From Bacteroidota bacterium (GTDB lineage: Bacteria > Bacteroidota > Rhodothermia > Rhodothermales > JANQRZ01), in the NCBI GenBank assembly GCA_038746285.1, contig JBCDKT010000005.1, positions 1 through 64,000 on the forward strand: a stretch of 64,000 nucleotides of DNA. The letters run 5' to 3'. The notes below the pieces were generated by a model. The model was given only the letters and a program-made list of their open reading frames with translations. It was not told the DNA's origin and did not search any database. A program made the translations under genes and the position numbers. This document shows positions 25,098-62,168 of the stretch, one piece after another; the first letter of the stretch is position 1; every line of letters starts with the position of its first letter.

Positions 25098-25685
25098 TCA
25101 GACTGTGTCATCTGGTCCGTACCGGTCAAAGGTCCACCGGAGCGGATTGTCGGCGATATACCGGCGAGCGACGCCCAGTTCGCGCTCGTCCCGCAGGACG
25201 CGCTCGTGGTAATTGCGCTGCCAGACCACCACCCCCGGCGTCCCGCGCGCCGCGTTGACCCGTTTCGTGACGGCGGATTTGAACCCGGCGACAAGCGCCC
25301 CCAACGATTTTGGCGGAGGTCCCGGTCGTGCGTTTGGTCCCGACCGTAGGGGCGACCGGCCGGTCGCCCCTACGCCACCGGTGGGCGTTGCGTCATCGCC
25401 GATGATGCCGAAGATCCCGTGAACGTGGTTCGGCATGACAACAAAGGCGTCCAATACGACCTCGGCCCGGATATCCCCTGTCCGTTCCCATTCCTCCCAC
25501 ACCATCGCCCCGAGGCCCGACAGGCACATTCCCCCGTCCACGACCTCGCCGAACAGGGGCACCTGGCCGTGCGTGCAGATCGTCACAAAGTACACCCCGT
25601 CGGCGTAGCCGTGAAACGGCAGGCGGACCGAGCGGCGGCGCTGCCGAGTCGGGTCGTAGCGGCGGGCGGGTTCGGCGAGGAGCAT
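25098..25685 (-). CDS. REP-associated tyrosine transposase (RAYT, IS200/IS605 Y1 family)
   Basis: 195 residues from the ATG at 25685. Family marks: RRSVRLPFHGYADGVYFVTI with CTHG, the metal-binding HVH in VVMPNHVHGIFG (H87, H89), WQRNYHERVLRDERELG, and the catalytic tyrosine Y176 in VARRYIADNPLRW. RAYTs nick single-stranded REP hairpins and are thought to move them, usually without mobilising themselves. Uniquely here, residues about 104-114 (GVGATGRSPLR) are encoded by a perfect 30-bp palindrome whose relatives are scattered through the window. It is a single gene without IS ends, convergent with the ATPase gene 18 bp away. All catalytic residues look intact. Confidence 0.9.
   Translation of the reverse strand: MLLAEPARRYDPTRQRRRSVRLPFHGYADGVYFVTICTHGQVPLFGEVVDGGMCLSGLGAMVWEEWERTGDIRAEVVLDAFVVMPNHVHGIFGIIGDDATPTGGVGATGRSPLRSGPNARPGPPPKSLGALVAGFKSAVTKRVNAARGTPGVVVWQRNYHERVLRDERELGVARRYIADNPLRWTFDRYGPDDTV
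25345..25374. repeat. GTAGGGGC-type palindrome inside the RAYT gene (copy 1)
   Basis: A perfect 30-bp palindrome: the 15-nt arm is CGTAGGGGCGACCGG followed directly by its complement. It is the most symmetrical copy of the family and is translated in frame within the transposase. Confidence 0.9.
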
Positions 25686-25719: not shown

Positions 25720-28242
25720 TCACCCTGCCGAGCGCAGCACCTCCAGCGGCGGGCGTTGGAGGATCCCCCGGCTCCCGACGAGGCCAATGGCGACCGTCAG
25801 CGCGGGCACGGCGAGGAGCGCGACGAGCACGCCGCCCCACGCCGGCACGAACGGCACCTCGAACACGAGCGCCGAGAGCGCCCACCCGCCGACGAGCGCG
25901 AGGCCGACGCCTACGGCCGCCGCGAGCAGCCCGAGCAGCAGGTACTCGGCGAAGAGGATCCGGCCGACCTGCCCGCGCGCTGCACCGAGCGTTCGCAGGA
26001 GCACGCTCTCCTCGATCCGCTGGAAGCGCGAGATGAGGACGGCCCCGGCGAGGACCACGAGGCCCGTCAGGATCGAGAAGAGAGCCATGAACTGGAGCAC
26101 GAACGCCACCTGGCCGAGCACGCCTTGCACCAAGCCTAGGACGAGGCGGACGTCGACGATCGACACGTTCGGGTAGGCGCGGACGACCTCGCGCTGGAGC
26201 CGCGCCGAGGTCTCGGCGTCGCCGCCAGGCGTCAGGATGATGTCGAACTGCGGGGCCCCGTCGAGCGGGCCTTCGGGGAAGACGACGAAGAAGTTGGGCT
26301 GGACCCGCGCCCAGTCCACCTCGCGCAGGCTCGCGATCTCGGTCTCCATGCGGACGCCCTGCACGTTCCACGTCAGCCGGTCGCCGAGCCCGACGCCGAG
26401 GTCGCCTGCGATGCCGGCCTCCAGCGAGACCGGGACGACGGCGGTGTCGGCCGGGACGCGGGCGGCGACGCGGCCCTCGACGAGCGTCTCGGAGCCGATG
26501 AGCCCGGCGCGGTAGGTCGAGCGGTACTCGCGGCGGAGCACCCAGCCCGGCACCGTGCTGGCCGAGTCCTGCCGGATGGCGTCGGTGCTGCGCCCGTTGA
26601 CGGCGGTGAGGCTCGTCGTCACGACGGGGATGCGGTCGAGGACCTCGCCGCCCTCCGACTCGATCAGGGACGCGATGCCGCCGCGCTGGTCGGGCTGGAC
26701 GTCGAACAGGATCAGGCCGGGGGGCGACCCGCTGCTCGTGACGGCGATCTGGTCGAGGAGCGAGGTCTGGACGAGCCAGAGCGTGGCGATGAGGAACGTC
26801 CCGAGCCCAAGCGTGAGCATGAGCACGAGCGTCTGGTTGCCCGGGCGGTAGAGGTTCGCCAGGCCCTGCCGCGCGGTGTAGGGCCAGCCCGACGGGGCGA
26901 CCCGGCGCACGGCGGCCATCACCCCGCGTGCCGCGAGCGCGAGGAGGCCGAGGACGGCCGCGATCCCGAGCGGGAAGCCGACCGCCGCCCGGGCGTCGCC
27001 CGTCTGCGCCCACGCGAACGCTGCCACGCCGAGCACCATAGCCCCGACGAGCGCGAGGCGCAGCGGGTCGAAGCCGCCCTCGCCCTCGGCCCCCGAACGG
27101 ATCGCCCGGAGCGGTGGGATGCGCCGGACGCGGACGAGCGGGAGGAGCGCGAACACGAGCGCCACCGCCAGGCCGATCCCGATCCCTTCGGCGACGGCCC
27201 GCCACGAGACCGCGAAGGCGACCTCGACCGGGAGGAACGGTCCGAGGACGGCGGGCAGCACAGTCTGCACCGCCACGCCGAGGGCCGCGCCGAGGACGGC
27301 CCCGGCGAGGCCGAGCGCGGCGGCCTGGAGGACGTAGGCGCGGAGCGTCTGCCCCGCCGTCGCGCCGAGGCAGCGGAGCGTGGCGACCGTCTCGGCCTTC
27401 TGGCGGACGTAGACCGTGATCGCGCTCGCCACCCCGATCCCGCCGAGGAGGAGGGCCACGAACCCGACGAGCGAGAGGAACCGCCCGAGGTCGCCGAGCG
27501 CGTTGTTCCAGTCCTCCTGCGCCTCCATCGGCGTGTCCGCCCCCAGCCCGAGGGCACGCAGTGCCGGCCTAATCTCGGCGAGGACGGCCTCCTCGTCGGC
27601 CGCGTCGAAGCGGAAGTGGCGGCGGTAGTCGACCCGGCTGCCGAAGCCGAGAAGCGTCGTGTCGAGCGCGGCGAGGGGTACGTACACCCGAGGCCCGACG
27701 AACGAGCCGACGCCGGTCTGCCCCGCGATCTCGTCGATCCCGCCGGCGATCCGGTACGTCCGCTGCCCGACGCGGACGGAGTCACCGGGGGCCACGTCGT
27801 ACTGCAGCAGAAGCGAGGCGTCGACGAGCGCTTCGCCCTCCGCCTGGTACGCGTCCGCCGCGCCCTCCGGGGTCGTCACGATCTCACCGTAGAACGGGTA
27901 GCCGCCTGCGACGGCGCGGACCTCGGTCAGCCGCGCCCCGCCGGTCGCGGGGAAGTAGGCCATCGAAGCGAAGGCGACCTCCTCGGCCTGGTCGCCGGGG
28001 TAGGCCCGCGCCACCGAGTCCACGAGCGCATCGCCCGGAGGCCCGAAGCCGCGCCGCGTGGACACCGTGAGGTCGGATCCGGTGAGCGACCGGGCCTGCT
28101 CGGCGACGGCCGTCTGGAGTCCGTCCGAGAACGAGCGAATCGCCACGAGCGCTGCCACGCCGAGGGCCGCCGAGGCGACGAAGAGAAGCAGGCGGCGGCG
28201 CGAGGTCCGGCTGTCGCGCCAGGCGAAGGTGAGGGAGAACAT
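25720..28242 (-). CDS. ABC transporter permease, FtsX/YbbP type
   Basis: 840 residues. TM1 is at about 17-37 (RRLLLFVASAALGVAALVAI), followed by a MacB-like periplasmic domain, a first FtsX block of three helices (about 255-385), further helices near 395-440, a second periplasmic domain, and a final FtsX block (about 705-840). This ten-TM, two-FtsX layout is that of E. coli YbbP. With the ATPase at 28279 and the divergent TesA-like esterase it reproduces the conserved ybbA-ybbP-tesA neighbourhood, thought to handle lipids or lysophospholipids in the envelope. The exact substrate is unproven. It ends 35 bp before the RAYT start. Confidence 0.88.
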   Translation of the reverse strand: MFSLTFAWRDSRTSRRRLLLFVASAALGVAALVAIRSFSDGLQTAVAEQARSLTGSDLTVSTRRGFGPPGDALVDSVARAYPGDQAEEVAFASMAYFPATGGARLTEVRAVAGGYPFYGEIVTTPEGAADAYQAEGEALVDASLLLQYDVAPGDSVRVGQRTYRIAGGIDEIAGQTGVGSFVGPRVYVPLAALDTTLLGFGSRVDYRRHFRFDAADEEAVLAEIRPALRALGLGADTPMEAQEDWNNALGDLGRFLSLVGFVALLLGGIGVASAITVYVRQKAETVATLRCLGATAGQTLRAYVLQAAALGLAGAVLGAALGVAVQTVLPAVLGPFLPVEVAFAVSWRAVAEGIGIGLAVALVFALLPLVRVRRIPPLRAIRSGAEGEGGFDPLRLALVGAMVLGVAAFAWAQTGDARAAVGFPLGIAAVLGLLALAARGVMAAVRRVAPSGWPYTARQGLANLYRPGNQTLVLMLTLGLGTFLIATLWLVQTSLLDQIAVTSSGSPPGLILFDVQPDQRGGIASLIESEGGEVLDRIPVVTTSLTAVNGRSTDAIRQDSASTVPGWVLRREYRSTYRAGLIGSETLVEGRVAARVPADTAVVPVSLEAGIAGDLGVGLGDRLTWNVQGVRMETEIASLREVDWARVQPNFFVVFPEGPLDGAPQFDIILTPGGDAETSARLQREVVRAYPNVSIVDVRLVLGLVQGVLGQVAFVLQFMALFSILTGLVVLAGAVLISRFQRIEESVLLRTLGAARGQVGRILFAEYLLLGLLAAAVGVGLALVGGWALSALVFEVPFVPAWGGVLVALLAVPALTVAIGLVGSRGILQRPPLEVLRSAG

Positions 28243-46686: not shown

Positions 46687-46714
46687 GTAGGGGCGTACCG
46701 CCCTACGCCCCTGC
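46687..46714. repeat. GTAGGGGC-family palindrome between actC and actD (copy 3)
   Basis: Arms GTAGGGGCGTA (46687-46697) and TACGCCCCTGC (46704-46714), 10 of 11 bp paired, loop CCGCCC. The outer stem matches the family; the core differs from the other copies. Confidence 0.8.
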
Positions 46715-47406: not shown

Positions 47407-47434
47407 GTACGGGCGCAGCATGCTGCGCCCCTAC
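47407..47434. repeat. GTAGGGGC-family palindrome between actD and actE (copy 4)
   Basis: 28-bp palindrome with one mismatch: arm GTACGGGCGCAGCA followed by TGCTGCGCCCCTAC. Outer stem as in the family, core GCAGCATGCTGC. It ends 10 nt before the actE start. Confidence 0.85.
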
Positions 47435-48115: not shown

Positions 48116-48143
48116 GTACGGGCACAGCATGCTGCGCCCCTAC
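48116..48143. repeat. GTAGGGGC-family palindrome between actE and actF (copy 5)
   Basis: 28 bp, nearly identical to the actD/actE copy: arm GTACGGGCACAGCA and TGCTGCGCCCCTAC, two mismatches. An upstream ATG at 48129 lies within it and is rejected as the actF start. Confidence 0.85.
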
Positions 48144-52208: not shown

Positions 52209-52211
52209 ACC

Positions 52212-52240
52212 GTAGGGGCGGGTTTGAAACCCGCCCCTAC
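52212..52240. repeat. GTAGGGGC-family palindrome between coxB and coxA (copy 6)
   Basis: 29 bp with perfect 14-bp arms: GTAGGGGCGGGTTT, a central G, and AAACCCGCCCCTAC. Same outer stem as the RAYT copy but a different core. It begins 4 bp after the coxB stop. Confidence 0.9.
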
Positions 52241-52255
52241 CAACCACATCTCATC

Positions 52256-62140: not shown

Positions 62141-62168
62141 GTAGGGGCGGCCGGTCGGTCGCCCCTAC
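62141..62168. repeat. GTAGGGGC-family palindrome between convergent genes (copy 8)
   Basis: 28 bp: arm GTAGGGGCGGCCGG and TCGGTCGCCCCTAC, two mismatches. It fills the 55-bp gap between converging genes and could act as a two-way terminator. Confidence 0.85.

Follow-up and report, generated by a model that had tools for sequence, protein, structure and literature searches.

The question raised by this locus is why a transposase gene should carry, in its own coding sequence, a palindrome of the kind that its product is presumed to target. The window, i.e. the whole stretch of 64,000 nucleotides that was analysed, contains a RAYT (TnpAREP, HUH/Y1) gene on the minus strand at 25098..25685, which the ORF listing gives as 195 aa with an ATG at 25685; a longer version of the ORF begins with a TTG at 25787. 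The flanking ORFs presumably encode a GspE/PilB-like ATPase and a permease-like protein, names that were given by inspection of the sequence. The RAYT has NHVH and WQRNY motifs, and the HVH (HUH) and tyrosine motifs that the sequence-only reading had called intact are both present: HVH occupies residues 87-89 (25419..25427, minus strand) and the putative catalytic tyrosine is Y176 in YIADNP (25158..25160, minus strand), assigned by the Y-motif given in PMC6006769. Between the two motifs, at 25345..25374 (codons 104-114), lies a perfect 30-bp in-frame palindrome, as the same reading had stated. It is a 'double foot' REP (GTAG...CTAC) with the sequence CGTAGGGGCGACCGGCCGGTCGCCCCTACG and the core GACCGGCCGGTC, and it encodes the peptide (G)VGATGRSPLR(S). 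A chance palindrome is ruled out, i.e. the observed score was reached by 0 of 100 and 0 of 200 base shuffles of the loop in two runs. The word GTAGGGGC occurs 13 times in the window as compared to 1.8 expected occurrences. A literature search with the exact palindrome-encoded peptide (10 residues) returned no match.

The protein matches NCBIfam REP_Tyr_transpos (E=1.5e-14, under the curated cut-off) and also Pfam Y1_Tnp, again under the cut-off. An AlphaFold2 model (pLDDT 77.8, pTM 0.74) has as its top PDB match in Foldseek the entry 4er8, the E. coli TnpAREP-REP complex (E=1.5e-5). In this model alpha-B spans residues 57-72 and alpha-C residues 128-147, and the loop encoded by the palindrome is predicted to be disordered (pLDDT <50 at residues 99-115).

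A known group with this kind of architecture is TnpAREP subclass 2.4, defined by Quentin et al. 2018 (PMC6006769), which corresponds to group 4 in the RAYT classification of Bertels et al. 2017. Its members are described there as proteins of about 194 aa with NH[IFV]H, WQ and YIxNNP motifs, a variable beta3-alphaC insertion and double-foot GTAG...CTAC REPs; in-frame REP insertions between HuH and Y are their hallmark, and these were deemed peripheral to DNA binding and of little impact. The window RAYT shares the HUH/Y1 fold with HuH and Tyr, its NHVH, WQRNY and length fit that description while YIADNP deviates slightly (D for the first N of YIxNNP), and its in-frame REP likewise falls within the variable insertion between beta3 and alphaC. 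Long, double-foot REPs are also present in the host genome (134 contigs, 96.6% complete), where 50 GTAGGGG(8-34)CCCCTAC sites in several core families were found on each strand and the reversed control pattern gave 0 sites. By fold, motifs, size, loop REP and host REP type we would assign the window RAYT to subclass 2.4. Since an in-gene REP was already described in 2018, the window gene adds a case to a known phenomenon; the accessible part of the 2018 text (PMC6006769) draws no link of the in-gene core to recognition residues or to genomic families.

The palindrome has relatives in the window and in the rest of the genome. Seven related palindromes had been counted elsewhere in the window; we find four good ones and a degenerate one. 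The good ones are dispersed REPs at 47407..47434 (core GCAGCATGCTGC, one arm mutated), 48116..48143 (core ACAGCATGCTGC), 52211..52241 (core GGGTTTGAAACCC, which is also the core inside the C42 RAYT of the same genome) and 62141..62168 (GGCCGGTCGGTC, near the in-gene core), and the degenerate REP-like palindrome is at 46687..46714. The core families of the host genome are TTTGATTAATCAAA or CTTGATTAATCAAG, GCAGCATGCTGC, GACCGGCCGGTC, GGGTTTGAAACCC and GTATTGCGATAC, and the window palindrome itself has four more exact copies and seven copies at one mismatch. The GCAGCATGCTGC family (47407-47434 and 48116-48143) has a core that is carried by none of the three RAYTs of the genome.

These three RAYTs, found by a protein search and 51-55% identical, do not agree with the expectation that RAYTs are single-copy genes. 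All three have an in-frame GTAG...CTAC palindrome at the same loop and the cores are all different, i.e. GACCGGCCGGTC in the window gene, GGGTTTGAAACCC in C42 and TTTGATTAATCAAA in C12, each with additional copies elsewhere in the host genome. In L024 (G000 C12:72217-72789) three tandem GATPDD-type peptide repeats lie immediately upstream of the in-gene palindrome. An IS200/IS605 insertion sequence was considered for this locus and rejected, as the three RAYTs are divergent genes and not repeated copies, and no GTAG palindrome was found flanking the window RAYT gene, where such an element needs subterminal hairpins at both ends.

The prevalence of the in-gene palindrome was estimated from 286 distinct RAYT loci, many of them in incomplete MAGs: 167 from the named genomes (80 loci), order-level relatives and a catalogue of all RAYTs in 57 genomes, and 119 from a fresh phylum sample of 396 genomes, 163 of which had matches. 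The palindrome was unmatched in 200 base shuffles of the loop in 112 of the 167 loci of the first set, and was likewise unmatched by base shuffles in 78 of the 119 loci of the second. About 70% of the RAYTs thus have it, an upper-side estimate because the search profiles came from palindrome-bearing RAYTs, and in about 30% a clear in-gene palindrome is absent or only decayed remnants are seen. A palindrome score of 9 was attained by 103 of 150 loops versus 1 of 150 upstream coding segments of equal length; the downstream segments, which extend beyond the gene end, attained it in 18 of 150 cases, as flanking REPs predict. A scan of viral contigs for RAYTs gave two distant relatives only. Palindromes were counted over 40 genomes by a generic pattern, and core-specific patterns were used for the families. 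One RAYT, L044, has a 53-bp perfect in-gene palindrome. Two genomes are rich in GTAGGGG(12-16)CCCCTAC sites: the Chloroflexi MAG G108 (L074, L106, L118, L119) has 176 of them in several core families along with 12 RAYT matches, and the 1.5-Mb Planctomycetes MAG G112 (L083, L150) has 169, three core families among them, but only two RAYTs were found in it.

Is it the DNA or the encoded peptide that is conserved? The same palindrome DNA is read in two frames, as VGATGRSPL and as RGDRPVAPT, and a second palindrome gives VGARHAVPL and GRGTACRAPT. Over all, GTAGGGG is in frame 0 in 49 genes, in frame 1 in 22 and in the frame that reads TAG as a stop in none. Random synonymous recoding regains the observed palindrome strength in just 2 of 103 genes. 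In four pairs of homologues the palindromes are identical at 30/30, 30/30, 26/26 and 30/30 positions (116 of 116 bases), in genes that are 65-76% identical outside the palindrome and in which 36-48% of the codons for shared residues are synonymously different. The two reading frames, together with palindrome identity amid gene identity of 65-76%, show that the DNA is conserved and not the peptide. Close homologues encoding the same peptide with non-palindromic codons had been named in advance as the finding that would speak against a role of the palindrome; instead, L026 has the same peptide encoded by the same 30 bases, whereas elsewhere in the gene synonymous differences from the window RAYT are seen at 59 of 143 conserved codons. 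We give practically no credence to the idea that selection acts on the peptide and that codon choice produces the palindrome incidentally. Most genes with this core do encode an identical VGATGRSPL, but the palindrome is lost on synonymous recoding, other cores encode unrelated peptides, and the use of two reading frames contradicts selection at the peptide level, which was rejected.

The in-gene core was then compared with the palindromes outside the gene. Among loci with both an in-gene palindrome and one at most 1.2 kb away, the six inner half-site bases of the two were exactly the same in 27 of 43 cases (shuffled mean 2.3, maximum 7). A similar tendency is seen at the level of whole genomes. 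When four cores were scored in 57 genomes, 19 genome-core combinations had both in-gene and dispersed copies, 13 had the in-gene copy only, 18 had dispersed copies only and 178 had neither (pooled odds ratio 14.5, p=8e-10; the in-gene assignment for G112, G130 and G134 was made from coordinates). For core D taken singly the association was not significant (p=0.05). The 13 in-gene-only combinations show that the gene retains its palindrome even where the REP load is not large. The Thermus genomes G102 and G107 have one palindrome of the GTAG pattern per whole genome, which must be the in-gene copy as this copy fits the pattern. Palindromes abundant in the absence of a matching RAYT, an outcome that had likewise been named as contrary to the proposed link, are found in a minority, i.e. 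in the 18 dispersed-only combinations. These make up 18 of the 37 combinations with dispersed copies and, with palindrome families such as GCAGCATGCTGC for which there is no RAYT of that core, they count against the cognate reading. The link between the window RAYT and its palindrome family nevertheless holds up: exact and near copies are present in the genome, core matches are beyond chance and the core covaries with residues of the protein (see below). Recognition of the cognate REP by the RAYT is, as far as sequence comparisons go, well supported.

The covariation was calculated on 103 clean cases that served for training. The two residues directly preceding FK[S] (positions -1 and -2) came out on top for core similarity after removal of background identity (r=0.46 and 0.38, as compared to a column mean of 0.00 and sd of 0.10). 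In the window RAYT these are A133 (position -2) and G134 (position -1) of alpha-C, just before FKS (codons at 25284..25289, minus strand). A second covarying patch comprises residues 65-75 (E65, T69, I72, R73, E75; 25461..25493, minus strand), from the end of alpha-B into beta-3. The inner half CCGG is found with AG in 18 of 19 training cases; for ACGG with xG the count is 10 of 10, for ATTG with RG 7 of 7, for CGCA with G[SA] 5 of 5 and for the odd-length CCCG with GQ 4 of 4. An outer core of ACG is accompanied by a PT pair at an earlier position of the helix (8/10). Without a tree null, raw mutual information told us nothing, as the variable terminal columns came first; the comparison used here is with columns simulated on a tree that was built without these regions. 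No simulated column reaches the association seen for the two residues before FK[S]. The columns that lead against this null have the spacing of a helix face and are ordered along the hairpin, i.e. the apex base goes with E65, T69, I72 and R73 of alpha-B, the next bases with G134 and A133, those further out with A133/A130 and then with the helix start.

A hold-out set of 75 RAYTs from fresh genomes was sampled after the columns had been named. Here the -1 column was first again, followed closely by the alpha-B patch and by the -2 column, and the column ranking of the training set was replicated (Spearman 0.47 over 153 columns). When a hold-out RAYT had the same dipeptide as a training RAYT, the two had 3.7 of 6 core bases in common, as compared to 2.1 for controls matched for identity; the difference was positive in 61 of 63 cases. 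Three simplified rules fixed in advance held in 9/17, 20/27 and 4/17 hold-out cases, versus base rates of 11/76, 45/76 and 4/76; as they generalised only in part, the code appears real in outline and not yet correctly written. RAYTs without an in-gene palindrome pair in the same way with their flanking REP (L031, L046, L165, L168, L184), so that the pairing is no artefact of the insertion in the coding sequence. Among the hold-out and extra loci, RGFKI occurs with A-rich tips in L205, L272, L290 and L337, and G[WYR]FKM with TTCA tips in L171, L185, L251 and L304.

The associations are statistical and the sequences are related, and one may ask if palindrome and helix are simply inherited together within each RAYT clade. 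RAYTs that share a core are indeed frequently related, and the median column z-scores are above 0, so that some phylogenetic signal is left. On the other hand, the partial correlations remove background identity, the tree-simulated columns never match the association at the two leading positions, the same helically spaced columns lead in two separate samples, and about 69 core changes are needed on the 103-tip tree. We consider shared ancestry a very unlikely explanation; the core bases appear to covary with alpha-B and alpha-C residues beyond phylogeny. The way in which the palindrome tracks specific RAYT residues suggests a readable protein-DNA recognition code.

Taken together, we consider it probable that the window gene is a subclass 2.4 RAYT whose in-gene palindrome is its own cognate REP, the hairpin being read by alpha-C and alpha-B and nicked near the GTAG foot. 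The palindrome itself, its conservation as DNA, its agreement with flanking and genomic REPs and the covariation are shown by the data; from these we infer the binding, the nicking and the individual contacts, as well as the reason for keeping the in-gene copy, in the following form. A copy of the cognate REP would be carried in the disordered loop that follows the HUH strand and precedes helix alpha-C. The folded single-stranded REP hairpin would be recognised via its GTAG foot and via core contacts, with A133, G134 and A130 of alpha-C lying along the stem and E65, T69, I72 and R73 of alpha-B at the apex, and the nick would fall adjacent to the foot. During drift of specificity the in-gene copy would shift along with the recognition residues; if it changes in step with them, reader and address are held in one gene.

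E. coli TnpAREP (subclass 2.2, 4er8) has the same fold, HUH and Tyr and a GTAG-headed REP substrate, but it has 33 residues from HUH to W94, no in-gene REP and a bulged REP stem, and specificity for the loop sequence is not reported. Its K82 contacts the REP bulge (PMC8266576). In a profile alignment of uncertain register K82 falls on S137, which is not in the top covarying pair, a point against the reading given above, and is one helical turn from A133/G134 in the same helix. Corneloup et al. 2021 describe two other TnpAREP groups that coevolved with their REPs and propose helix alpha-3 as the reader of loop bases (PMC8266576). Subclass 2.5, or group 3 (Stenotrophomonas, Marinomonas), is similar in that the REPs have perfect stems and loop bases set the activity; it differs in its short REPs with GTAG outside the stem, and in-gene copies are not reported (PMC8266576). 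Di Nocera et al. 2013 (PMC3733652) describe GTAG REPs as well as intragenic REPs in other genes. Such intragenic GTAG/CGTC REPs, like the Rickettsia palindromic elements (PMC3733652), are in-frame palindromes within coding sequences too, but the genes that hold them, among them uvr, rec and dna, are unrelated ones and not that of the presumed mover. For the prevalence of about 70%, the conservation of the DNA in two frames, the match of the in-gene core to flanking and genomic cores and the core-residue covariation we found no prior reports; our coverage of the literature is partial and more may have been reported.

The in-gene site may be a donor, a maintained link of enzyme and target, an autoregulatory hairpin or a tolerated passenger, and two of these accounts have to be weighed here. 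An abundant mobile REP may land repeatedly in a permissive, disordered loop, perhaps helped by the enzyme acting in cis, and have no function there, which is the view of Quentin et al. 2018. We take this as a real possibility, rated somewhat below even. In its favour, the modelled loop is disordered and its length varies, about 30% of the RAYTs have no palindrome or decayed remnants of one, and intragenic REPs occur in other genes (PMC3733652). Less easily accommodated are the 13 of 32 genome-core combinations in which the palindrome is solely in the gene and the two Thermus genomes whose one palindrome is the in-gene one, as well as the perfect identity of palindromes between diverged homologues and a fast core turnover that is accompanied by matching recognition residues. 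Alternatively, the hairpin in the mRNA or in the single-stranded gene may be bound or nicked by the gene's own product, which would limit expression. The palindrome hairpin does dominate the predicted mRNA fold of its stretch (-36 kcal/mol, z=-2.2), and binding to folded hairpins is known for this group of HUH enzymes (PMC8266576); however, the known substrate is single-stranded DNA and the site is in the middle of the gene and not at its start. Such autoregulation seems unlikely to us.

Beyond the reading of the palindrome as the cognate REP there is a broader proposal, about which we are almost evenly divided and lean slightly to doubt: subclass 2.4 RAYTs may be self-addressed. The gene would keep its own target hairpin, the alpha-B and alpha-C residues would give a roughly colinear base code through which specificity is readable and perhaps reprogrammable, and active maintenance would preserve the copy, either because it is the master of a REP family or because it is the link by which enzyme and target are inherited together. 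If the in-gene palindrome does label specificity, then matched pairs of enzyme and target are present in the sequence databases in large numbers. They would suffice to work out a hairpin-recognition code for HUH nucleases, to put this code to the test and to predict the RAYT from which a given REP family arose. An insertion that has been filed as neutral would then raise the question of why the target of a transposase should lie inside the transposase gene.
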